NCBI GenBank assembly: GCA_028279215.1
Contig: JANQOF010000002.1
Coordinates: 1 to 64,000 of the forward strand
From: Pirellulales bacterium
GTDB taxonomy: Bacteria; Planctomycetota; Planctomycetia; Pirellulales; Lacipirellulaceae
Direction of reading: 5' to 3'
Length of the DNA stretch: 64,000 bases
Made by a program: the position numbers and the translations under genes. This document shows, in pieces, positions 6,889 to 19,343 of the stretch. Numbering within the stretch: the first letter of the stretch is position 1; each line of letters begins with the position of its first letter. Below the pieces are notes generated by a model. That model saw nothing but the letters and a program-made list of their open reading frames with translations. It was not told the DNA's origin and searched no databases.

Positions 6889-7800
6889 TCAGCCGATCGA
6901 CACTCGATCAACGGCGCGACAAAAGAGCCGAAATGGGGCAAGCAGATTGTCACGCCACCCGACGCCCTTCGCCGTTGTTCGGAAAAGCACCACGGTTGCA
7001 TCACTCGAATCTGTTAGCGTCGGGTTGTTAGCGACGACCGAGCTGAGTAGATCCATCGGAAGGTTCGCCGTGGTCGTCGTTGTAAGTGATTCGACCAAAT
7101 CGCTGATACCGCGTACACCGAGAGTTGCCCCTCGCTCATCGACACATTCCATCAAGCTGCTGCTGTATAGCAAAGCCATGTCTCCGTAATCCATTCCAGT
7201 GGAGAGCTCCTGATACTCGGTTGCATCCAAAAAGGAGTCTGTGCTGTCCTCGCTCGACATCGAGCGTGGAGGCTTAAGAGCTTCCCACTTACGCTTGGCG
7301 GCGCGGTAGAGCAGTGGAGGAGGGTGTCCCGCGTTGCAAAGTGTGAGTTGGCATCGGGAAGAAAAGTAGGTGGCCAGCATCATCGAGACAAAGCAGCCAC
7401 GGTCGGTGGCCTGCTTTAGGCTCTCCGTCAGCTCAGTGACGCAGCCAGTCTGACGGATGCGGTTGATGTGGCGCTGAATGATCGATTGCAATTCGGCGGA
7501 TACCTTGGCGAACTGATGGCCGCGGCTGCAGATGTCTGCAAGTAGGAAACGAGTAATGCGGCCAGAAGCGCATGAAGAAATCAGATGGAGATCCCCGCCG
7601 CCAGCACACTGCAGGTTTGCAGAGAGACTTCCGATCCAGACTTCAATGCCCGGTCGCTCAAAATGGTAGTTGCGCGGACCACTACCCCCCCACACTTCCA
7701 TGCAACCCATCTGGGCCGAGGTGCTATCAGTTTTTTCGGATAATTGAGTGGTCATGACAATTTGGCCGCTATGAATCGTTTGGACGTCGTAAACATCCAT
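6889..7800 (-). CDS. SpoIIE/PP2C-like phosphatase with damaged metal site
   Basis: A 303-residue single-domain protein of the SpoIIE-type PP2C family, in the form common in planctomycetes (CMEVWGG, GGGDLHLISSC, NAGHPPPLLYR). Normal members dephosphorylate serine/threonine phosphoproteins such as anti-anti-sigma factors. Two Asp ligands, in GGGD (residue 70) and LLADI (89), remain. The Thr-Asp pair of the usual YTDS loop is replaced by Ser-Ser-Ser (213-215), and the usual C-terminal Asp-Asp reads Ser-Asp (267). It may therefore be inactive or use fewer metals. It lies 88 bp downstream of the methyltransferase gene on the same strand, which links it to the lipid island. ATG 7755 is an alternative start. 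Confidence 0.8.
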   Translation of the reverse strand: MDVYDVQTIHSGQIVMTTQLSEKTDSTSAQMGCMEVWGGSGPRNYHFERPGIEVWIGSLSANLQCAGGGDLHLISSCASGRITRFLLADICSRGHQFAKVSAELQSIIQRHINRIRQTGCVTELTESLKQATDRGCFVSMMLATYFSSRCQLTLCNAGHPPPLLYRAAKRKWEALKPPRSMSSEDSTDSFLDATEYQELSTGMDYGDMALLYSSSLMECVDERGATLGVRGISDLVESLTTTTTANLPMDLLSSVVANNPTLTDSSDATVVLFRTTAKGVGWRDNLLAPFRLFCRAVDRVSIG

Positions 7801-7888
7801 ACTTCCTATATCCTAGGAGGGGAGGCCGAGGTTGACGAGCCGCGCAAGAAATTCGGCAAATTTGGGCCCGTATCCGCCTGTTCGTTCA

Positions 7889-8962
7889 CTATTTCCTCAC
7901 GCTGTGCTTAGTTGCACGCTGGCCAGGAGAGAGGCTGGCAGCAGACGCACACACTCGCTCGAACCGGTAGTGGCCAACAAACCACTCGTTTCCGCCGCCA
8001 TACCGGAATAGCTCGGCACATGCCATGAAGAACATCCGCCAGCGCTGTAGAGCAATTTTGGCGTGTCGAGGACCAAGTTGTTGCCGCAGGATCTGCAGCA
8101 GACTCTCGTGATTTCGGTCGAGATTCGCAAGCCATTTTTCACACGTGCGCCAGTAGTGCATCCCATTCACACGCCATTGCCGTTCGATCGACAGGTGCTC
8201 GCCAAAATTCCTAAACAGGTCTTCGGAGGGCATTACTCCACCCGTAAAGAAGTGTCTGGCCATCCAATCATCTTTTCCAGTCTGCTCAAATAAGTACGGG
8301 GTACTTCTGTGGCAGAACACATGGACAAACGCCTTGCCGTTTGGTCGTAGCCAGGATGCCACACGCTCAAACAACAGTGCGTAATTCCGCATGTGTTCGA
8401 ACATCTCCACCGACAAGACGCGGTCGAAGCGGTCGGACGTTTGGAAACTGCGCATGTCTGCGGTGATGACGTCCAAATTAGAAAGTCCCAACTGGTCTGC
8501 GCGAGTGAGAATGCAATCTCGTTGGGTAGTGGAGTTGGAAACTGCGGTAATGTGGCAAGCCGGGTGATTCTCAGCAATCCAGAGCGTGAGAGAACCCCAC
8601 CCACACCCAAGTTCCAACAGTCGCATGCCGTCGTTCACTTCTGCTCTTTTGGAAGTCAACGCGAGCATTGCCCTCTCGGCCACCTCGAGTTGTACCTGCG
8701 GCGATTCGAACAGGCAGCAACTGTATTTTAGGCGAGGTCCCAGAATGTACTCGAAAAACTCCGTTGAAACTTCATAATGTTGCTCATTGGCCACCTCGGT
8801 CGCGACGGCCAACGGCGAGGCGCGGAGCTGCTCAACAAGTCGAGCCATGGCATCGTGCTCGCGACGCATGCTGGCCAGTCGTTGCGCTAGCATCCGTCTT
8901 ACTCCCCAGCGCACGGCGGAATCGGACAGCAAACCAAGTTCGGCAAGTCGTAATAGGCCCAT
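7889..8962 (-). CDS. SAM-dependent fatty-acyl methyltransferase (CFA/UfaM-like)
   Basis: A 357-residue class I methyltransferase of the cyclopropane-synthase-like superfamily. The SAM-binding motif is LELGCGWGSLTLWIA near residue 117, preceded by YSCCLFES, which matches the substrate-entry region of CFA synthases. The C-terminal FRYGGGNEWFVGHYRFER is typical of the branch that includes UfaM-like enzymes, which methylate the double bond of membrane acyl chains. It differs clearly from the cyclopropane synthase at 11931. It is divergent from the DUF1295 gene with 77 bp between the two starts, and followed by the phosphatase-like gene. Exact product (methylated, furan or cyclopropane acyl chain) is an open question. 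Confidence 0.85.
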   Translation of the reverse strand: MGLLRLAELGLLSDSAVRWGVRRMLAQRLASMRREHDAMARLVEQLRASPLAVATEVANEQHYEVSTEFFEYILGPRLKYSCCLFESPQVQLEVAERAMLALTSKRAEVNDGMRLLELGCGWGSLTLWIAENHPACHITAVSNSTTQRDCILTRADQLGLSNLDVITADMRSFQTSDRFDRVLSVEMFEHMRNYALLFERVASWLRPNGKAFVHVFCHRSTPYLFEQTGKDDWMARHFFTGGVMPSEDLFRNFGEHLSIERQWRVNGMHYWRTCEKWLANLDRNHESLLQILRQQLGPRHAKIALQRWRMFFMACAELFRYGGGNEWFVGHYRFERVCASAASLSPGQRATKHSVRK

Positions 8963-9039
8963 CTGGCGATGCTCGCGGACTGTGGGGTTGTCACAATGGT
9001 AGAATTGTAGCGTCCCGGCAAGTCCAATTGGCCATCCCC

Positions 9040-9813
9040 ATGACGTTCCCAGAACTATTGCTATCCAATCTAGCGATTGTCGCCACGGTGTTCACTGCGC
9101 TGTGGTTGGTGAGTCTATGGGTTCGCGACGCGAGCATTGTCGACATTGCCTGGGGCCCCAGTTTCGTGGTCGTGTGCTGGGCCAGTTTGTTGTTGACCGG
9201 CCAGAGCAATCCGCAATCGGTGGCCATCGTTACCTTGGTGTCCATATGGGGGATCCGTTTGTGCGTTTACCTGGCCTGGCGGAATCTTGGCAAAGGCGAG
9301 GACTTTCGCTACCGTTCCATGCGCGACAAGCATGGTGCTTGGTTCTCAGCAATCAGTCTTTGCTCCGTATTCTTGCTGCAAGCCGGCATTGTTTGGGTGG
9401 TCTCGTTGCCCATTCAAGCGGGCGTTGCATTGAGCGGCGAGCTGTCGTGGCTCGCTTACCTGGGCATGCTGGTGTACGCCTTGGGATTAACCTTCGAGGC
9501 CGTTGGCGACTATCAGCTCGCAAGATTCAAAGCCGATCCGACGAATCGAGGTAGAGTAATGAACCAGGGTTTGTGGCGATATACCAGGCACCCGAACTAT
9601 TTTGGCGACTTCTTGGTGTGGTGGGGAATCTACTTGGTTGCGTGCGAACCCTCCACCTGGTGGTGGACGGTTGTCGGCCCGCTTATCATGTCGGCCCTAT
9701 TGATATGGGTGTCGGGAGTGCGCCACTTGGAGGGATCGCTGGCCAGCCGTATTAACGGATACAAGGCTTACGTCGAACGAACTAGCCCTTTCTTTCCCTT
9801 GCCACCAAAGTGA
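9040..9813 (+). CDS. DUF1295 integral membrane protein
   Basis: A 257-residue membrane protein with about six hydrophobic helices. It ends in the conserved GLWRYTRHPNYFGDF segment of DUF1295, a family related to steroid 5-alpha-reductase and isoprenylcysteine methyltransferase folds. Such proteins are repeatedly found next to CFA-type methyltransferases, DUF1365 and flavin amine-oxidase-like genes, and probably act on membrane lipids with a reduced cofactor, but the reaction is not established. ATG 9040 starts the first membrane helix; the frame remains open far upstream into the divergent gene, which is coincidental. It is first in the rightward set of lipid genes. Confidence 0.88.
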   Translation: MTFPELLLSNLAIVATVFTALWLVSLWVRDASIVDIAWGPSFVVVCWASLLLTGQSNPQSVAIVTLVSIWGIRLCVYLAWRNLGKGEDFRYRSMRDKHGAWFSAISLCSVFLLQAGIVWVVSLPIQAGVALSGELSWLAYLGMLVYALGLTFEAVGDYQLARFKADPTNRGRVMNQGLWRYTRHPNYFGDFLVWWGIYLVACEPSTWWWTVVGPLIMSALLIWVSGVRHLEGSLASRINGYKAYVERTSPFFPLPPK

Positions 9814-9853
9814 CGGTCGCCGAGGTCAAGTTCGGTGACCCGCTGTGACGGGC

Positions 9854-9882
9854 TTGGCATGTACTGATTGCCGTTGTATAGA
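9854..9882 (+). promoter_or_regulatory. Candidate promoter of the flavoprotein-DUF1365-cfa operon
   Basis: TTGGCA, 17 bp, TATAGA lies about 80 bp upstream of the flavoprotein start. The spacer holds TGTAC and TTGTAT, the kind of sequences MerR-type light regulators bind between -35 and -10 elements. The match to a sigma-70 promoter is good but was found by eye. Confidence 0.4.
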
Positions 9883-9961
9883 GTGTGGTACGATCGATCG
9901 GACCTCAGACGCCCTCACCTACTCTTGGCCTCGACTCTCAGCAATAAGAAGGAATAGTTCG

Positions 9962-11242
9962 TTGCGTATTGCTGTTGTCGGAGCGGGCGTCAGTGGATGC
10001 TTGGTAGCGAGATTGCTCTCATCGCGCCACGAGGTCGTGTTGTTCGAAGCGAACGACTACCCGGGTGGGCATGCAAATACAGTCGACGTTGCCATCGATG
10101 GACGTCGGATTCCGGTCGACACCGGTTTTATGGTATTTAATCATCGCAATTATCCAAATTTCTGTAGATTGCTCCACTTGCTTGAGGTGCCGTCGCAACC
10201 GAGCGACATGAGCTTCAGCGTGCATGACGAGAAGACGGGGCTAGAATACCAAGGTAGCTCGCTAAACGGTTTGTTCGCACAGCGCCGCAATTTTGCCCGT
10301 CCCCAGTTTCTGTCGATGCTTCGAGACATCGTGCGCTTCAACAAGATCGCGACAGCTGTTCTTAGAGATGGCGGACCATCGATTGATCAATCCGTCGAGC
10401 AGTTCTTAGCGAGTTGTCGGGTGGGCCGACGGTTTAGGGACATGTACTTCCTGCCAATGGCAGCTGCCATCTGGTCGTGTAGCACCGGCGACATTCGCGG
10501 CTTTCCGGCAAAGTTCATGCTCGGATTCTTCGCCAACCATGGCCTTCTACAATTGCGCGACCGGCCCCGCTGGAGAACCATCGTCGGCGGGGCTCGTACC
10601 TACCTCGAAGCGCTGCTGGAGCCGATTTCATGCGCTTTACGACTCGGCACTCGCATCGCGTCCGTGGCACGGTCGTCCGACGCAGTTGAAGTTTTGCCTG
10701 AGGATGGCGAAGAAGAGAGGTTCGACGAAGTAGTGTTCGCAACACATGCCGACCAAACACTCCAAATGCTTGCCGATGCTTCATCCGCCGAAAAGGGTGT
10801 TCTCGGGTCGTTCCCCTACAAGTCGAACGAAGCAGTCCTTCACACCGACCGGCGTTTGCTGCCGAAACGCCGCCGCACTTGGGCGAGTTGGAACTACCGT
10901 GTGACGGCCGACGCTTCCAATCTGGTAAACGTGACCTACGACTTGCGCCGACTACAACGGCTGCCATTGACTGGCCCGCTGCTGCTGACACTCAACAGTA
11001 CCGACAGTGTTGCAAGCTCTTCGATTATTCGCTCATTCAGGTATCGTCACCCCGCCTACGATGTGCAATCGATTGCCGCCCAGAATCGATATTCGGAGAT
11101 CGGCGGTGTACGGCGCACACACTACTGTGGCGCCTACTGGGGTTATGGGTTCCATGAGGACGGAGTCAACAGTGCCCTACGTGTTGCCGCCTCCTTCGGT
11201 ATAGGACTCGAGGAATGCAAAGTTGCTTTTATGCAGGCGTAG
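9962..11242 (+). CDS. NAD/FAD-binding flavin amine-oxidase-like protein
   Basis: A 426-residue flavoprotein. A Rossmann FAD motif VVGAGVSGCL starts at about residue 5, followed by FEANDYPGGHANT and the conserved VDTGFMVFNHRNYPN. It ends in YCGAYWGYGFHEDGVNSA, the FAD-contact motif of the family. These proteins are encoded beside DUF1365 and CFA-type enzymes in many bacteria and are thought to oxidise, desaturate or isomerise membrane acyl chains. The start is taken as TTG 9962, since the FAD motif begins four residues later and AAGGA lies 8 bases upstream; no ATG fits. The 3' end overlaps the DUF1365 gene by 28 bp, which suggests translational coupling. Confidence 0.88.
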   Translation: MRIAVVGAGVSGCLVARLLSSRHEVVLFEANDYPGGHANTVDVAIDGRRIPVDTGFMVFNHRNYPNFCRLLHLLEVPSQPSDMSFSVHDEKTGLEYQGSSLNGLFAQRRNFARPQFLSMLRDIVRFNKIATAVLRDGGPSIDQSVEQFLASCRVGRRFRDMYFLPMAAAIWSCSTGDIRGFPAKFMLGFFANHGLLQLRDRPRWRTIVGGARTYLEALLEPISCALRLGTRIASVARSSDAVEVLPEDGEEERFDEVVFATHADQTLQMLADASSAEKGVLGSFPYKSNEAVLHTDRRLLPKRRRTWASWNYRVTADASNLVNVTYDLRRLQRLPLTGPLLLTLNSTDSVASSSIIRSFRYRHPAYDVQSIAAQNRYSEIGGVRRTHYCGAYWGYGFHEDGVNSALRVAASFGIGLEECKVAFMQA

Positions 11243-12018
11243 TAACTCATCAGCGTGCGACTCCTGTACCGCACTACTTGCGTTACAAAGTCTCGATGGC
11301 ATACCTTGACCTCGACGAGACCGAAGTGCTCAAGAAGCGCGGGCGGTTGTCGCGTCGAAGATTCTCGTTAGGAACATTCGACGAGTCGGACCATGTGTTT
11401 GGCCAGCATGGCGCCATCAAGCAGGCACTACGCCAGTTCCTCGCCCGCAACCACGGGCTCCAACTTGAAGGTCCAGTGCGCCTGCTCACACAATTGCGTG
11501 TGCTGGGTCTGTATTTCAGCCCCCTCAATCTGTACTACTGCTTTGATTCGGATGGATCTAGGGTGGTTGCAGTTGTTGCGGAAGTGAGCAACACCCCATG
11601 GAACCAGCGGCACCACTACGTGTTATGCAGCGGAAACCAGATCGCAAATGCTGATAGACTTGAGTACTATCACCCAAAGCAATTCCACGTGTCGCCATTC
11701 ATGCCGATGGAGATGGCTTATAGTTGGCGGTTGAGTGTGCCGACGAAAGAACTGAGCGTTCGGATCGAGACTCAACGAGATGATCAGCCGATTATGACGG
11801 CGGCCATGGAATTGGAGCGGCTGGAGTTATCACCAGCCAACCTTCGTCGCCTCGCATTTCGCACTCCCGCGGCTCCTGTGCAAATCCTATCCGGAATTTA
11901 TTACCAGGCCTTCAAGCTTTGGTGGAAAAAATGTCCCTACTATCCTCACCCCAAGAGTCTCGCCACTCACAGCCCCAGCACGCTGGAAAAATCCACCATC
12001 GCGAACCGAACGCCATAG
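11215..12018 (+). CDS. DUF1365 family protein
   Basis: A 267-residue protein of the DUF1365 family. Recognisable parts are SCFYAGVVTHQR at the start, the HYLRYKV segment, the LLTQLRVLGLYFSPLNLYYCF core near residue 95, the EVSNTPWNQRHHYVL block, and KQFHVSPFMPM near residue 155. The function is not known biochemically. Members occur almost always between a flavin amine-oxidase-like gene and a CFA-type methyltransferase gene, as here. ATG 11215 lies inside the end of the upstream gene, and its own end overlaps the cyclopropane synthase by 88 bp, so the three are co-translated. Confidence 0.9.
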   Translation: MQSCFYAGVVTHQRATPVPHYLRYKVSMAYLDLDETEVLKKRGRLSRRRFSLGTFDESDHVFGQHGAIKQALRQFLARNHGLQLEGPVRLLTQLRVLGLYFSPLNLYYCFDSDGSRVVAVVAEVSNTPWNQRHHYVLCSGNQIANADRLEYYHPKQFHVSPFMPMEMAYSWRLSVPTKELSVRIETQRDDQPIMTAAMELERLELSPANLRRLAFRTPAAPVQILSGIYYQAFKLWWKKCPYYPHPKSLATHSPSTLEKSTIANRTP

Positions 12019-13256
12019 CAACAGTCGACGACCGGCATCGAATCGTCCCCAAGATCGCGAGTCTGGCCGACACAGCGTTTCGACGCTTGGTGTTGTCGAA
12101 GCTTGATGAGATCGACGAGGGGATTCTACTGTTCAGCGAGGGGACGTGCGGTCTACGTTTCGGGCGTTGCGCCGACGACGACCTACAGGGGCACGTTGTG
12201 GTGCGCGATAGGAGGTTCTATCGCATGACAGTCCTCGGAGGGGCGAACGGAGCCGCCGAAGCGTATCTCCGCGGGTATTGGACTACCCCCGACTTAACTG
12301 GCGTGTTGCAGGTGATGGCCAGAAACCTCGCGGCAGCTTCACGCTTGGGGAGATTTGCCACCCAATTGCTGCTTCCATTCACGTCGCTGGCGCGATGGTC
12401 GCAGCGTAACACCGTGCTTGGGAGCAAGCGGAACATTGCTGCCCACTATGATCTGAGCAATGACTTCTTCGGCCTCATGCTCGATCCGACGATGACTTAC
12501 TCGTGTGGAGTATTTCCTCACGCGAGTACGACTTTGCAGGAGGCTTCGCTTGAGAAGTACGATCGCATCTGTCGCAATTTGCAATTACGGCCCGATGACC
12601 GACTGCTGGAAATCGGAACCGGCTGGGGCGGGTTTGCCGAGTACGTCGCGCGCGAATATGGGTGTCACGTCACTACCACCACCATCTCCGATGCCCAGCA
12701 TGAATACGCCCACGACCGGTTCCGCAATGAAGGGATTTCGGACCGGATCACGTTACTACACAGAGACTATAGAGAACTTGCCGGTCAATATGACAAACTA
12801 GTGTCCATCGAAATGGTCGAAGCTGTGGGCGAGCGCTTTCTGCCACAGTTCTTCGCCAAGTGCTCAAAACTGTTGAAGCCGGACGGAATGATGGCCCTGC
12901 AGGCCATCACCATGCCCGATTACCGCTATGCCAGCTATCGCCGGAGCATCGACTTCATTCAGCAGTACATCTTCCCGGGCGGATTCTTGCCCAGCTTGGG
13001 AAAGATGGCTGCTTGCATCGGCGGCGATACCGACTTGCGCATCGCCCAATCAGAGGACTTCACCGCCGACTATGCGCGTACCCTTTCCGCATGGCGGGAC
13101 AACTTCGAAGCGAATCTCGGTCTAGTGCGCGAGTTGGGGTTCGACGACCGATTCGTTCGTATGTGGAGTTACTACCTTTCCTACTGCGAAGCTGGTTTTC
13201 TCGAGCGACAGGTGGCAGTCGGCCAGTACCTGCTTAGGAAACCAATGGCTAAATGA
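11931..13256 (+). CDS. cfa: Cyclopropane-fatty-acyl-phospholipid synthase
   Basis: A 441-residue CFA/mycolic acid cyclopropane synthase family enzyme that transfers a methylene from S-adenosylmethionine to double bonds of phospholipid acyl chains at the inner face of the membrane. The AHYDLSNDFF segment, the YSCGVF motif, the SAM site LLEIGTGWGGFAEYVA near residue 225, SIEMVEAVGE, and DFIQQYIFPGGFLPS are all in place. MWSYYLSYCEAGF near the end holds the conserved Tyr and Cys region. ATG 11931 is used, with an upstream TTG at 11919 as an alternative. It overlaps DUF1365 by 88 bp and converges on the CarH-like regulator 33 bp away. Confidence 0.93.
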   Translation: MSLLSSPQESRHSQPQHAGKIHHREPNAIATVDDRHRIVPKIASLADTAFRRLVLSKLDEIDEGILLFSEGTCGLRFGRCADDDLQGHVVVRDRRFYRMTVLGGANGAAEAYLRGYWTTPDLTGVLQVMARNLAAASRLGRFATQLLLPFTSLARWSQRNTVLGSKRNIAAHYDLSNDFFGLMLDPTMTYSCGVFPHASTTLQEASLEKYDRICRNLQLRPDDRLLEIGTGWGGFAEYVAREYGCHVTTTTISDAQHEYAHDRFRNEGISDRITLLHRDYRELAGQYDKLVSIEMVEAVGERFLPQFFAKCSKLLKPDGMMALQAITMPDYRYASYRRSIDFIQQYIFPGGFLPSLGKMAACIGGDTDLRIAQSEDFTADYARTLSAWRDNFEANLGLVRELGFDDRFVRMWSYYLSYCEAGFLERQVAVGQYLLRKPMAK

Positions 13257-13289
13257 AGAAGTGCGATTTTGGCAGATCCGTCTTGAATC

Positions 13290-14174
13290 TCACGGCACCG
13301 TTTCATTGCCGTCGGTTATCGCCGTGCGCAAAGTTGTTGCGAATGACTCCAAGTGCTGCATGTTGTCGCAATAGGCCGAATACTGCATCTGTTGCCGAAG
13401 CTCTTCATGCAGGGCCCTTCCGCCGACGACGATGCCTGTAGACGCGCCCACCTCTTCGTACAGACCACGGTAATCGCGAAGAAACGTGTTTTCGTCTTCC
13501 AAATAAGAACAGCTCAACCACAGCAGTTTTGGCCGCCGCTTCTTAACGGCATTAGCTAGCGACTCTAGTGGCAAGTTCATGCCCAGCGACGTCGCCGTCC
13601 AATGGCATTCGCTTAGCACGAGTTCTGCCATTTTGGTCCCGAGGGAGTAATAATCCCCTGTGGGCGTACCTCCAATTGCCAATGGACCTTCAACGTTCGT
13701 TGGCACGAACGTTAGGAGTTCGTCCAGTATACGGTCGAGGATCTCGCACCCGTGTCGTTCCTCAAACACTTCCGCTTCGCCACATGCCCAGGCGTCTCCG
13801 ATCTCGACGAAGGCCTGTGCGAACACTTCATCGCACATCCGACTCAGGCTGAACTCTGCAAGGTAAAGGTCGATCGCAATCTGTCGGCAGCGCAGCTCAT
13901 CACCACCAAGTAGGGCTTCGGTGAGCTGCCCCCGAGCCCGGTCGATCGCGAGGCGGCCTGTGCCACTGCTAGCCGGCAACCCCAACGCCTCTGGGTGCAC
14001 GAGCCTGTATTTGGTGCTCGAGAGAAACTGCATAATCGACGAAAGCGCAACGCGGCGATGGCCTCCTGCTGTGTATTCAGTTTCGATGACTCCTTTGTCG
14101 CACCATCGCTTCACAGACGACTCACTCACCCCAAGCCCCCGGGCGACCTGTTTGGGTGTGATTTTGCTTGCCAT
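13290..14174 (-). CDS. CarH/LitR-like MerR regulator lacking the B12 ligand His
   Basis: A 294-residue transcription regulator in two parts. An N-terminal MerR-type winged helix has the wing sequence TAGGHRRV at 36-42. It is followed by a four-helix bundle and a C-terminal Rossmann-like cobalamin-binding domain. CarH-type photoreceptors hold adenosylcobalamin with a Wx9EH motif and the His of DxHxxG. Here the first reads W129-x9-E139-R140-H141, and the second is DYYSLG with Tyr176 in place of His. The domain is therefore probably B12-independent or uses another ligand. Known relatives repress carotenoid, photolyase, cfa and sigma-factor genes in the dark. It converges with cfa and is divergent from a sigma factor. 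ATG 14174 starts the HTH. Confidence 0.85.
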   Translation of the reverse strand: MASKITPKQVARGLGVSESSVKRWCDKGVIETEYTAGGHRRVALSSIMQFLSSTKYRLVHPEALGLPASSGTGRLAIDRARGQLTEALLGGDELRCRQIAIDLYLAEFSLSRMCDEVFAQAFVEIGDAWACGEAEVFEERHGCEILDRILDELLTFVPTNVEGPLAIGGTPTGDYYSLGTKMAELVLSECHWTATSLGMNLPLESLANAVKKRRPKLLWLSCSYLEDENTFLRDYRGLYEEVGASTGIVVGGRALHEELRQQMQYSAYCDNMQHLESFATTLRTAITDGNETVP

Positions 14175-14366
14175 GATACTGCTGTGAATGTTTTGGACGA
14201 TTTCTAAACTACGTACGGATTGGAGCTGCGCGGTTAGAACACCACCACAACTATAGCCGTTTGCCGCCAACTGTACCTAAAATTTTCGGACCATGCATAT
14301 CTCATACTCGGTAAACCACAGTCTTTGGTGAATCTCGGTTTGTGAGCATTATGCCCGTTTTTTGGC

Positions 14367-14395
14367 TTGCCCCAGCGATCAAGTCGGGGTAGACT
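14367..14395 (+). promoter_or_regulatory. Candidate promoter of the sigma-factor gene
   Basis: TTGCCC, 17 bp, TAGACT lies about 43 bp upstream of the sigma-factor start, in the 263-bp space shared with the divergent CarH-like regulator. It is a plausible control point for that regulator. No clear operator palindrome was found. Confidence 0.3.
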
Positions 14396-14437
14396 TATTG
14401 AACGTTGTGAACGAATTTACCACGAGTGAGGTATCCC

Positions 14438-15364
14438 ATGGCCGGCTCCACTATAACTCGGGATCATCGATCTGTAGTCTCCGAGCATTCGCTCACCGAT
14501 CGCGTTGCGGCATTGCTGGAAAAAGAAATGTCGTTCATTGCAAACGAATCGTTCTCTCCGCGTACGACGATCAAGCCATGCAAAGAGTGGGAGGAATTGC
14601 GCCGACATGCGAAAGGGCGAAACGCGTCGGGTCGAACGGGGCGGATCGGTTCCGACGACCTCTTGACGCCCGAACAAGAGGTGAAGCTGTTCCTCCGAAT
14701 GAACTTCCTCAAGTTCCGCGTGACGGCAATCGCCCAGCGCCTTTCGGCTACTGCACCTAACGAAGAGAAGGTAGCACGCGCCGAAGCAATCATGGCAGAA
14801 GCCGAGGCGATTCGCAATCACCTGATCACTGCCAACATGCGGCTCGTTATGTCGATTGCGAAGAAGTATGCGACGCCGCAGCACCCGTTCGACGAGCTGG
14901 TGAGTGAAGGCACCGTTACGCTAATGCACGCGGTAGACAAGTTTGACGCTGATCGTGGATTCCGGTTTAGCACCTACGCCTATCGTTCAATCGTACGAAC
15001 CATTTATCGTTGCCTGATGGAAGCGCAGAAAGAACGGCAGCGTGTTTCATCAAGTGTGGAGGAGCCCGCCTTGGAAGAGGCCGACGAGACGAAGAGTTCC
15101 GTTGCAATTGACCAAGTGTGGCAAGACATTAGGGACCTCGCGTATTCGATGCTCGATCAGCTCGACCGTCGCGAGAGATTTATAATTCGTAGTCGTTACG
15201 CGCTGGGTTCTCATCGCAAGGCGCGCTCCTTCCAGTACCTGGCGAACAAACTTGGAATCTCTAAGGAGAGGGCCCGCCAGCTTGAATCGCGCGCGGTCAA
15301 AAAGCTACGGACGATCGCCGAAGGCTACGACCGGGACGAGCTATTTGGTGCGGCGTTGTCGTGA
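14438..15364 (+). CDS. Sigma-70 family RNA polymerase sigma factor
   Basis: A 308-residue sigma-70 family factor with regions 2 to 4. LITANMRLVMSIAKKYA begins region 2.1, followed by FDELVSEGTVTLMHAVDKFD and FRFSTYAYRSIVRTIYR (2.3-2.4, -10 recognition). Region 4 is FQYLANKLGISKERARQLE, the -35-binding HTH, near residue 275. A long N-terminal part lacks the region 1.2 of housekeeping RpoD, so this is an alternative factor, larger than the ECF class. ATG 14438 follows GAGGT; a GTG at 14426 is the alternative. It is divergent from the CarH-like regulator, an arrangement that recalls the litR-litS pair of streptomycetes, so light- or stress-induced transcription is a reasonable inference. Confidence 0.9.
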   Translation: MAGSTITRDHRSVVSEHSLTDRVAALLEKEMSFIANESFSPRTTIKPCKEWEELRRHAKGRNASGRTGRIGSDDLLTPEQEVKLFLRMNFLKFRVTAIAQRLSATAPNEEKVARAEAIMAEAEAIRNHLITANMRLVMSIAKKYATPQHPFDELVSEGTVTLMHAVDKFDADRGFRFSTYAYRSIVRTIYRCLMEAQKERQRVSSSVEEPALEEADETKSSVAIDQVWQDIRDLAYSMLDQLDRRERFIIRSRYALGSHRKARSFQYLANKLGISKERARQLESRAVKKLRTIAEGYDRDELFGAALS

Positions 15365-17359: not shown

Positions 17360-18361
17360 CTACGCTGCCGCAGGCAGTTTTTGTGGTGGCTGTCCGGCGG
17401 TCAGGATCAACCTCAGGCGTTCGAACTCATCGGCATCGGCGAAGTGAATGGTCACCTTACCTTTGCCCTTGGCGTTTTGTGTCAAAACGGCCTTGGTGCC
17501 TAACGCTGCTTTGAGTTCCTGCTCCAAGTGCGCCAGTTGTTCGCTTCGTGTGGCTCGCTTCGAGGTGCCACTCGCCTCGGCACCCGGCATCGACAACAAG
17601 TCTTCGTTGCTCGCATGCAGTTGATCCTGCACGGCCTGTTCCGTGGCCCGAACCGACATCGACTCGGCCTTGATGCGATAAGCGTAGTCGATCTGTCGCT
17701 CCGCGTCGCCCAGCGGCAGTAGCGCTCGGGCATGCCCCTGGCTGATGTCGCCTTTGACGACCAACTTCTTGACCTGCTCGGGCAGTTCGAGCAAACGAAT
17801 CAGGTTGGCGATCGTCGAGCGATCGATGTGGATTCGCGAAGCGAGGTCTTCTTGCGTGCAGTTGTAGTCTTGCAAGTACTTCTGGAAGCAGGCGGCCTTT
17901 TCCAAAGCGTTGAGGTCTTTACGCTGCACATTCTCAACGATCGCCAACTCGGCCATCTGCTGGTCGCTTACGTCGCGCACCTGCACCGGCACTCGTTCCC
18001 AGCCAGCGGCTTGCGCGGCGCGAAGTCGTCGCTCGCCCGCAATGAGTTGAAACCGGTCGCCCGTTTGCCGAACGACTAGTGGTTGGATCACTCCGTGCGC
18101 TCGGATGCTGTCGGCGAGATCCGCGATTTCGACTTCGTCGAATTCCTTCCGCGGTTGGTGTGGATTGGCATCGATCGACACCACGTCGAGCCAGAGTTGG
18201 CCGTTGTAATCGCGGTCCATCGCCGAGTGATCGCTCGCATCGCTAGCAGGCGCGTCGGCAACGAACTCGTTTTCGAGCGGCACGGTTTCGGTCGACGGTT
18301 CGTCGAGCGAACGTCCTAGCAGTGCTTCCAAGCCACGTCCCAGCCGGCGTTGATTAGACAC
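17360..18361 (-). CDS. parB: Chromosome partitioning protein ParB
   Basis: A 333-residue ParB/Spo0J protein that binds parS, loads as a CTP-dependent clamp and works with ParA in chromosome segregation. MSNQRRLGRGLEALLG at the N-terminus is the ParA-contacting region. QPLVVRQTGDRFQLIAGERR is the CTP-binding ParB/Srx core with the GERRLRA box, and a HTH (QEDLASRIHIDRSTIANLIR) follows near residue 175. The C-terminal dimerisation part ends in KVTIHFADADEFERL. The start is GTG 18361, which lies inside the end of parA (8-bp overlap), so the two are translationally coupled. Three parS-like sites lie 2 kb upstream, at 20288-20384. Confidence 0.95.
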   Translation of the reverse strand: MSNQRRLGRGLEALLGRSLDEPSTETVPLENEFVADAPASDASDHSAMDRDYNGQLWLDVVSIDANPHQPRKEFDEVEIADLADSIRAHGVIQPLVVRQTGDRFQLIAGERRLRAAQAAGWERVPVQVRDVSDQQMAELAIVENVQRKDLNALEKAACFQKYLQDYNCTQEDLASRIHIDRSTIANLIRLLELPEQVKKLVVKGDISQGHARALLPLGDAERQIDYAYRIKAESMSVRATEQAVQDQLHASNEDLLSMPGAEASGTSKRATRSEQLAHLEQELKAALGTKAVLTQNAKGKGKVTIHFADADEFERLRLILTAGQPPQKLPAAA

Positions 18362-19100
18362 GATCGAGTACCTCCTGACATAATTCGATGTACGCTCGCG
18401 CTCCCTGCGAGCGTGGTGCGTAATTGATTATCGGCAGCCCATGGCTCGGCGCTTCGGCCAACGCTACATCTCGTGGCACAACGGTAGAGAACACCACTTC
18501 CCCAAAAAACTCGCGAACTTCGCGTTCAATTTCTTGCGTCAGTTCGAGTTGCGGTTCGTACATAGTAAGTAGTATGCCGCCAAACTGTAGCCGAGCGTTG
18601 TCGGTCGCCATCACCTGGCGAATCACTTCAATCATTTGTGTGAGGCCTTCCATCGCGAAGTACTCGCACTGAATCGGCATCAACACTTCGTCACTTGTTG
18701 CCAGCGCCGTCCGCGTGAGCCCACCTAGTGAAGGTGGGCAATCGACGAACACCAGGTCGTATACGCTCAGGCTCGCGGCCAGGTGCTCGACCACTCGCAT
18801 CGACTCGGTGTCAGTTGCGGTGGCCAAGGCGTCGACGTCGCGAAAACTCTGACTGCCGGGCAGCAACTCCAGATTCTCAATGTCGGTCGTTTGCACTACC
18901 TCACGAATCGGCTTAGCGTCGACCAACGGATGGCGCTCGACCGCCTCGCGGCCCACCGCACTGGTCGCATTACACTGAGGGTCGAGGTCGACGAGCAGCG
19001 TTTTTTGTCCGCCGATCGCGCAGCCCGTAGCCAGACTCACCGCGGTGGTCGTCTTGCCGACGCCCCCTTTCTGGTTTGCGATGGTGATGACTCGACCCAT
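18354..19100 (-). CDS. parA: Chromosome partitioning ATPase ParA
   Basis: A 248-residue ParA/Soj-type Walker ATPase. The deviant Walker A motif is KGGVGKTTTA (residues 11-20), with the signature Lys. LLVDLDPQCNAT is the A' motif and VFVDCPPSLGG is Walker B. ATG 19100 begins the conserved MGRVITIANQKGG; the frame remains open for 55 codons upstream, but that part has no similarity to the family. It forms an operon with parB through an 8-bp overlap. The preceding 420 bp hold a perfect hairpin but no gene. Confidence 0.96.
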   Translation of the reverse strand: MGRVITIANQKGGVGKTTTAVSLATGCAIGGQKTLLVDLDPQCNATSAVGREAVERHPLVDAKPIREVVQTTDIENLELLPGSQSFRDVDALATATDTESMRVVEHLAASLSVYDLVFVDCPPSLGGLTRTALATSDEVLMPIQCEYFAMEGLTQMIEVIRQVMATDNARLQFGGILLTMYEPQLELTQEIEREVREFFGEVVFSTVVPRDVALAEAPSHGLPIINYAPRSQGARAYIELCQEVLDRV

Positions 19101-19343
19101 ACGTAGGGACCGGCTAAGTGAGTTAAAAGTCGGAAACCAAAGTGCAGGGAAAGGGCCGAATTGTAGGAATTCGCCTCCCCGCGCGATACGCCAGTTGCCG
19201 CTAGCATTCGCGTCGACCCATCCTGGTAAATGCCCCAAATGGGCCAACACGATCCATGGGGGCAAAACTCAGCCCACTGGCCCGTTTGGCACGATCGCAA
19301 CTCGTTGCCGACACGCAACTTGCGACGATGTTGGACTCTTGCC

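Follow-up and report, generated by a model that had tools for sequence, protein, structure and literature searches.

The window analysed here comprises the first 64,000 nucleotides of contig JANQOF010000002.1 (GenBank assembly GCA_028279215.1), from a Pirellulales bacterium whose genome assembly spans 4.56 Mb in 83 contigs and is 95% complete. Between positions 6889 and 15364, it possessed eight open frames, listed in a preliminary description of this DNA and considered real genes, as all the frames were present and profile searches agreed with the broad family proposed for each: SpoIIE, CMAS (twice), DUF1295, flavin amine oxidase, DUF1365, a helix-turn-helix (HTH) domain with B12-binding_2, and sigma-70 regions 2 and 4. 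Five of them are predicted to form a furan-fatty-acid cassette, which lies beside a MerR/CarH-like regulator (hereafter REG) and a divergent sigma factor (hereafter SIG). REG, which has the CarH fold, probably represses its own gene and that of SIG through direct-repeat operators until an oxidative signal occurs, upon which SIG would transcribe the lipid genes.

A predicted furan-fatty-acid cassette

In the pathway of Rhodobacter and Rhodopseudomonas, an 18:1 chain is methylated by UfaM and desaturated by the flavoprotein UfaD, UfaO (DUF1365) is required to place oxygen from O2 in the furan ring, and a second methyl group is added by FufM; RPA2571-2570-2569 of R. palustris are ufaD, ufaO and ufaM (excerpts of PMC7380195). 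Based on family matches and similarity to proteobacterial cassettes, UfaD, UfaO and UfaM homologues also occurred together in the window, as three consecutive plus-strand genes: a flavoprotein of the UfaD type, putatively an acyl desaturase (9962-11242; PF01593/NAD_binding_8; proposed TTG start after AAGGA), a UfaO (DUF1365) protein of the furan-forming oxygenase family (11215-12018; PF07103, 249.3 bits), and a CMAS enzyme whose frame opens at 11919, with an uncertain true start, and ends at 13256 (PF02353, 284.6 bits). The UfaD-type protein was 43-46% identical to the flavoproteins of four proteobacterial cassettes.

The two methyltransferases had first been labelled "UfaM-like" (7889-8962) and "CFA synthase" (cyclopropane fatty acid synthase; 11919-13256), and both labels were dropped on structure comparison and a Gln signature. 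The 11919-13256 enzyme possessed a Gln in place of the His of both aligned CFA synthases (6bqc and 5z9o), which suggests the UfaM type; the same Gln was found in 25 of 25 UfaM-type proteins (22 planctomycete, including that of the window, and 3 proteobacterial). The 6bqc structure is that of the E. coli enzyme, and its His is a bicarbonate ligand. For the 7889-8962 enzyme (minus strand; PF02353), the closest solved structure was coclaurine N-methyltransferase 6gkv (235 bits, compared with 95 bits for CFA synthase 6bqc), which suggests the FufM type. Over 336 aligned positions, this enzyme shared 45.5% identity with a CMAS protein of Mesorhizobium that adjoins DUF1295, in a locus that also carries UfaD-UfaO-UfaM and an extracytoplasmic function (ECF) sigma-ChrR pair. 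The Arabidopsis protein AT4G33110 is presumably coclaurine-N-methyltransferase-like. Its identity to FufM is given as 37.87% (excerpts of PMC10940516).

The fifth predicted member is a DUF1295 membrane protein (9040-9813, plus strand; PF06966, 239.7 bits). Of 40 further planctomycete loci with UfaO, 33 had all five families; the 40 comprised all 21 REG-bearing genomes with an unlinked cassette and 19 of the 58 REG-less genomes with UfaO; the other seven loci were short of one or more families, some of them at contig ends, and DUF1295 was present in most of the 40. The earlier proposal of a lipid-modification set of the type found in singlet-oxygen or light regulons is supported. A complete five-family cassette, with FufM type and DUF1295, was also carried by a Mesorhizobium terrae plasmid typed as mobilizable (L131), beside an ECF sigma-ChrR pair, fasciclin and MsrPQ. 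In addition, a fatty acid desaturase occurred near UfaD in four loci (L063, by Pfam; L062 and L072, by clustering; L149, by eye), and may introduce the double bond on which UfaM acts.

With one UfaM-type and one FufM-type enzyme, the cassette is predicted to yield furan lipids with one or two methyl groups. A (di)methylated furan fatty acid is the most likely product rather than a cyclopropane lipid, which narrows the cyclopropane, methylated or furan chains initially envisaged. It is improbable that the cassette instead makes methyl-branched or cyclopropane lipids hardening the membrane against general stress. Such products would suit the membership of both methyltransferases in the CMAS family and the silence on DUF1295 in the excerpts of the furan-pathway paper searched for it (PMC7380195); moreover, the types were assigned by family and proteobacterial homologues. 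They would fit poorly with the UfaO and UfaD types that accompany the methyltransferases in nearly every locus, or with the invariant UfaM-type Gln at the CFA-synthase His position.

The CarH-fold regulator, its sigma factor and a candidate operator

REG (13290-14174, minus strand) possessed an N-terminal HTH (HTH_17, 34.3 bits against a cut-off of 27; the MerR model, at 21.4 bits, was under its cut-off of 28.2), a four-helix bundle and a Rossmann B12 fold (B12-binding_2, 29.0 bits against 23; B12-binding, 28.6 bits, under its cut-off of 32.1). Structure comparison brought up CarH, photocobilin and AppA SCHIC domains, but does not discriminate the bound ligand, and the score against the curated CarH model was far below its cut-off (NF052513, 44.8 bits against 400). 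The Wx9EH motif was incomplete, as W129 and E139 were kept and the His was replaced by R140, and the cobalt-ligand His of the D/ExHx2G/P motif was absent, the sequence reading D-Y-Y (Tyr176). Across 69 of 70 homologues (L055, lacking these columns, was dropped), the cobalt-ligand position was Tyr in 63 and His in one, and the EH pair was ER in 39 and EH in 28. Plain CarH membership was thus ruled out, as both the ligand His and the EH residues fail. Of the CarH/LitR-like regulator initially described, the sensor fold and the position beside a divergent sigma gene hold, and the CarH-type B12 light receptor does not, since two photoreceptor residues are changed and the genome shows no photolyase match.

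The sole homologue with the cobalt-ligand His (L053, GDAH) adjoined a photolyase and an epimerase-type gene, and may still be a B12 light receptor. Two genomes possessed paired adjacent REG homologues, in tandem in one and divergent in the other (L043 in G152 and L059 in G044).

REG could still be a cobalamin photoreceptor if Tyr176 or cobalamin's own base served as the lower ligand, with green or blue light freeing it from DNA, but this is unlikely: the ligand His is absent in 68 of the 69 homologues, the EH pair of the window protein is ER, a domain with the same Arg bound neither adenosylcobalamin (AdoCbl) nor methylcobalamin and is called light-independent by its authors, and no photolyase was matched in the window genome. 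This genome does have a cobalamin adenosyltransferase, so B12 may still be used as such.

SIG (14438-15364, plus strand; ATG after GAGG) matched Pfam regions 2 and 4, with no region-3 match, and has a long N-terminal part besides. Its best NCBIfam models were of the RpoS/RpoD types, and among the matches listed only the sigma70-ECF superfamily model was above its cut-off. REG and SIG form a stable pair: in the REG tree, a 17-member clade including the window protein (support 100/99) had a divergent SIG partner in every row. Bootstrap values were unsettled in this tree, on which the SIG label needs five changes, and 4 of the 21 SIG-linked rows fell outside the clade.

The REG-SIG gaps of relatives had in common a 22-bp element built around a 9-bp direct repeat, TGAACGWTT-TGAACGAATT. 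In the window, the direct-repeat operator TGAACGWTTTGAACGAATTT occurred upstream of both genes, read on the plus strand as an exact pattern match at copy C (14184-14205; 29.1 bits), 9 nt upstream of the REG start codon, and at copy B (14398-14419; 33.0 bits), at the expected SIG transcription start. A degenerate copy A (14342-14363, plus strand; 9.8 bits) lay upstream of the SIG -35; its score was equalled by an unrelated site at 7086, and it was included because of its position, 56 bp away from copy B. The proposed SIG promoter, TTGCCC-17-TAGACT (14367-14395, plus strand), lies between copies A and B and was not listed by a consensus promoter scan. Relatives possessed pairs 57-59 bp apart with better promoter hexamers than the window's at the same place; overall, 13 of 22 gaps had two copies 56-59 bp apart, one of them weak in some, with TTG-like and TATAAA-like hexamers between.

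The operator matrix was built from 32 sites in 19 of 22 REG-SIG gaps, and counts are quoted at a threshold of 16 bits throughout. Among 48 held-out REG upstream regions, 25 had a site in the same orientation and 2 in the opposite one, compared with 2 of 3040 background pieces on the same strand and 3 of 3040 on either strand. These pieces were GC-richer than the upstream regions; no site was found in 858 pieces with GC at or below the upstream median, or in 960 pair-shuffled upstream regions. The held-out counts at thresholds of 14, 16, 18, 20 and 24 bits were 28, 25, 22, 20 and 12 of 48. In a second held-out set, fetched later, 9 of 14 regions had the operator and none had it in the opposite orientation, and it was kept in REG homologues of about 30% identity (L064 and L076). 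A search of the window genome with an 18-base pattern gave two exact matches, both between REG and SIG, and no single-mismatch match. Since these two copies had contributed to the pattern, their exactness was built in, and the informative outcome is the absence of others. Five scattered places had two mismatches, and allowing up to three gave 59 places, of the same order as the 43 of a reversed-pattern control. The operator is newly found here, and is a candidate REG site. Another operator-like site, weaker at 6.9 bits, lies at 7771 ahead of the proposed start of SpoIIE; it was not counted, as unrelated places score higher.

REG may bind the operators at its own gene and at SIG. With copy B over the expected transcription start and an unremarkable 17-bp spacer between -35 and -10, REG would repress both genes rather than activate them. 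Streptomyces LitR-LitS offers a known case in which a MerR-fold regulator drives a sigma gene (excerpts of PMC12705666).

Linkage of the regulator to the cassette

REG was found in 74 of 392 planctomycete genomes and DUF1365/UfaO in 108. UfaO was present in 50 of the 74 REG-bearing genomes versus 58 of the 318 REG-less ones (odds ratio 9.3, Fisher P = 6e-16, in a test that takes genomes as independent, which kin are not), and the two genes were within 15 kb of each other in 29 of the 50 genomes holding both, including that of the window. The clustering of REG with DUF1365 is not due to chance. Where synteny was examined across Planctomycetota, the regulator and sigma factor were kept beside the lipid genes in relatives, so the arrangement put forward in the preliminary description is conserved beyond the window.

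The arrangement was further inspected in gene-called loci. The caller was run on 68 loci, 10 of which had no called REG, and counts are out of the remaining 58, three of which were tabulated without a REG label. In 16 of 23 UfaD-bearing loci (L001, with UfaD cut by the contig end, was left out), UfaD belonged to a continuous run of same-strand genes diverging from REG; 12 of these runs passed via SIG, nine of them from one genus, and four reached UfaD without SIG. All but one (L090) of the 16 corresponding gaps held an operator. The layout of the window, with the cassette apart from the operator, recurred in L149, from the same family. In this layout SIG would act in trans on the cassette, putatively from the divergent FufM/DUF1295 promoter region.

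Several observations weigh against this scheme of regulation. Three of the 22 REG-SIG gaps gave no seed site, and 23 of the 48 held-out REG loci had no operator. In Streptomyces, LitR activates litS on light (excerpts of PMC12705666), the opposite of the repression proposed for REG. The FufM/DUF1295 divergent region of the window genome had no operator, and a search of the FufM/DUF1295 gaps of the window, L149 and L199 gave no SIG promoter motif common to them, so the step from SIG to the cassette is unproven. An operator was found upstream of 4 of 21 unlinked cassettes in REG-bearing genomes, at distances from next to the first matched cassette gene to about 1.2 kb from it, versus none of 19 in REG-less genomes (one-sided P = 0.07); this speaks for the link, but chance could produce such a difference, and the L163 site, one of the four, was reversed. 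Adhaeretor mobilis (L002) possessed REG, SIG and SpoIIE and no cassette genes within 20.9 kb. In three other same-genus genomes, REG was only 38-39% similar with no operator upstream (two) or was not found (one). UfaO was unmatched in 24 of the 74 REG-bearing genomes, and 58 genomes had UfaO without REG. Finally, photolyase was not clearly commoner in REG loci (9 of 81) than in cassette-only loci (1 of 40; P = 0.10), and the window genome had no match to photolyase PF00875 or to the ChrR-type cupin PF12973, which weakens a light-specific interpretation.

The cassette promoter region of the window without an operator, the Adhaeretor locus and the 58 genomes with UfaO alone would also suit an independent regulatory pair that merely lies beside the cassette, the lipid genes being under their own control. 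Such independence nonetheless seems rather improbable given the co-occurrence of REG and UfaO and their linkage in 29 of 50 genomes, the same-strand runs reaching UfaD in 16 of 23 loci, four of them without SIG, and the operators upstream of 4 of 21 unlinked cassettes. Two REG-less genomes had SIG homologues adjoining the cassette (L197 and L198); these were not used as proof that SIG drives it, as a paralogue elsewhere in the window genome (L200) scored equally against the SIG set in BLAST.

Possible signals and comparison with known systems

Several gene types recurred near REG in the 58 gene-called loci, namely epimerase/DUF1731 (10), DCC1-like (9), photolyase (4), SOUL heme-binding (4) and fasciclin (4), each identified from one representative by Pfam, with a control made for photolyase only. 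Proteobacterial relatives of the cassette adjoined a photolyase and a MerR gene (Salinivibrio) or an ECF-ChrR pair. In Rhodobacter, singlet oxygen destroys furan lipids, which are needed for full sigma-E activation (excerpts of PMC6852236). These three lines, namely the REG neighbours, the proteobacterial cassette neighbours and the behaviour of Rhodobacter furan lipids, favour photo-oxidative stress. Since the CarH residues are changed and no photolyase was matched, a lipid signal, singlet oxygen or some other oxidant is just as probable as light. No ChrR was detected in 121 planctomycete loci, using three ChrR proteins as tblastn queries. Photo-oxidative stress or another oxidative signal would release REG by a route other than CarH-type AdoCbl photolysis, SIG would transcribe the cassette, and the furan lipids it may yield would protect the cell from singlet oxygen.

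More speculatively, and at rather long odds, REG may found a new class of B12-fold sensor, in which an ancient planctomycete lineage swapped the ligand His for a near-invariant Tyr, reads another chromophore or oxidant (heme, porphyrin or a furan-lipid oxidation product) and fires a sigma factor for furan lipids that scavenge singlet oxygen, without ChrR.

The SpoIIE/PPM-like protein (6889-7800, minus strand; PF07228, 60.9 bits; possible true start at the in-frame ATG at 7755) had been put forward as a phosphatase-like partner. Five loci had such a protein close to REG or SIG (window, L002, L005, L007 and L149, where it adjoins REG), but the window copy lacks one conserved Asp: that of YSDA/FSDA, intact in L002, L005 and L007_4, is Ser, so its metal-binding set is incomplete. 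Four Asp define the PPM site. A partner-switching role would require an anti-sigma kinase and an antagonist, neither of which is among the eight genes. The SpoIIE-like proteins of the window, L002, L005 and L007 share a CMxVWGG start motif, and in one L007 copy most of the Asp set is missing. Two to three genes past SIG, ParB-like and ParA-like genes (17360-19265, minus strand; translations, by eye) may indicate proximity to a replication origin.

Taken together, these features suggest a proteobacterial-type furan-lipid defence wired to a CarH-fold regulator without the cobalt ligand, a new candidate operator and its own sigma factor. With DUF1365/UfaO in 108 of the 392 sampled genomes, many Planctomycetota are predicted to make furan fatty acids and to use them in a regulated defence. 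One lipid cassette would be wired to unrelated regulators in different phyla, and the REG homologues form a naturally occurring set of B12-fold regulators that lack the cobalt ligand, in which what such a domain senses becomes testable with a candidate operator available. In open-access full texts, with most subscription journals outside the search, none paired 'planctomycet' with 'furan fatty acid', and none joined 'planctomycet' with both CarH and LitR.

Among known systems, the Rhodobacter/Rhodopseudomonas furan pathway shares the enzyme families, with ufaD-ufaO-ufaM together as RPA2571-2569 and a FufM-type second methylase (excerpts of PMC7380195). It differs in that R. sphaeroides places it under sigma-E/ChrR, whereas in the window no ChrR was found, DUF1295 is a regular member and the furan product is predicted. 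The sigma-E/ChrR system (ECF11) similarly has a sigma factor beside furan-lipid genes and a core regulon including furan synthesis; in the window, however, no anti-sigma factor was found, and control would be exerted by a DNA-binding regulator on the sigma gene.

The Streptomyces LitR-LitS system also has a MerR-fold regulator beside a sigma gene whose promoter it controls, as the candidate operators flanking the proposed SIG promoter, the upstream one weak, would suggest for REG. LitR uses AdoCbl, activates litS on light and is associated with carotenoid genes, whereas in the window the ligand is lost, repression is proposed and a lipid cassette is present. CtMerR of Chloracidobacterium (8JBS) and Thermus CarH share with REG the HTH, the helical bundle and the Rossmann B12 fold, including the GxxW and GxxxP motifs; REG differs from them by the changes of EH to ER and GxxH to GxxY and by the GAACG direct-repeat operator. 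The Pseudomonas Class II LitR proteins PmlR and PplR are also CarH relatives, thought unable to bind B12, and control ufaM, photolyase and other light-inducible genes (excerpts of PMC9758184). They keep only the helical bundle, with the signal in P. mendocina coming from a LOV protein, whereas REG keeps the whole sensor fold, with Tyr at the ligand position.

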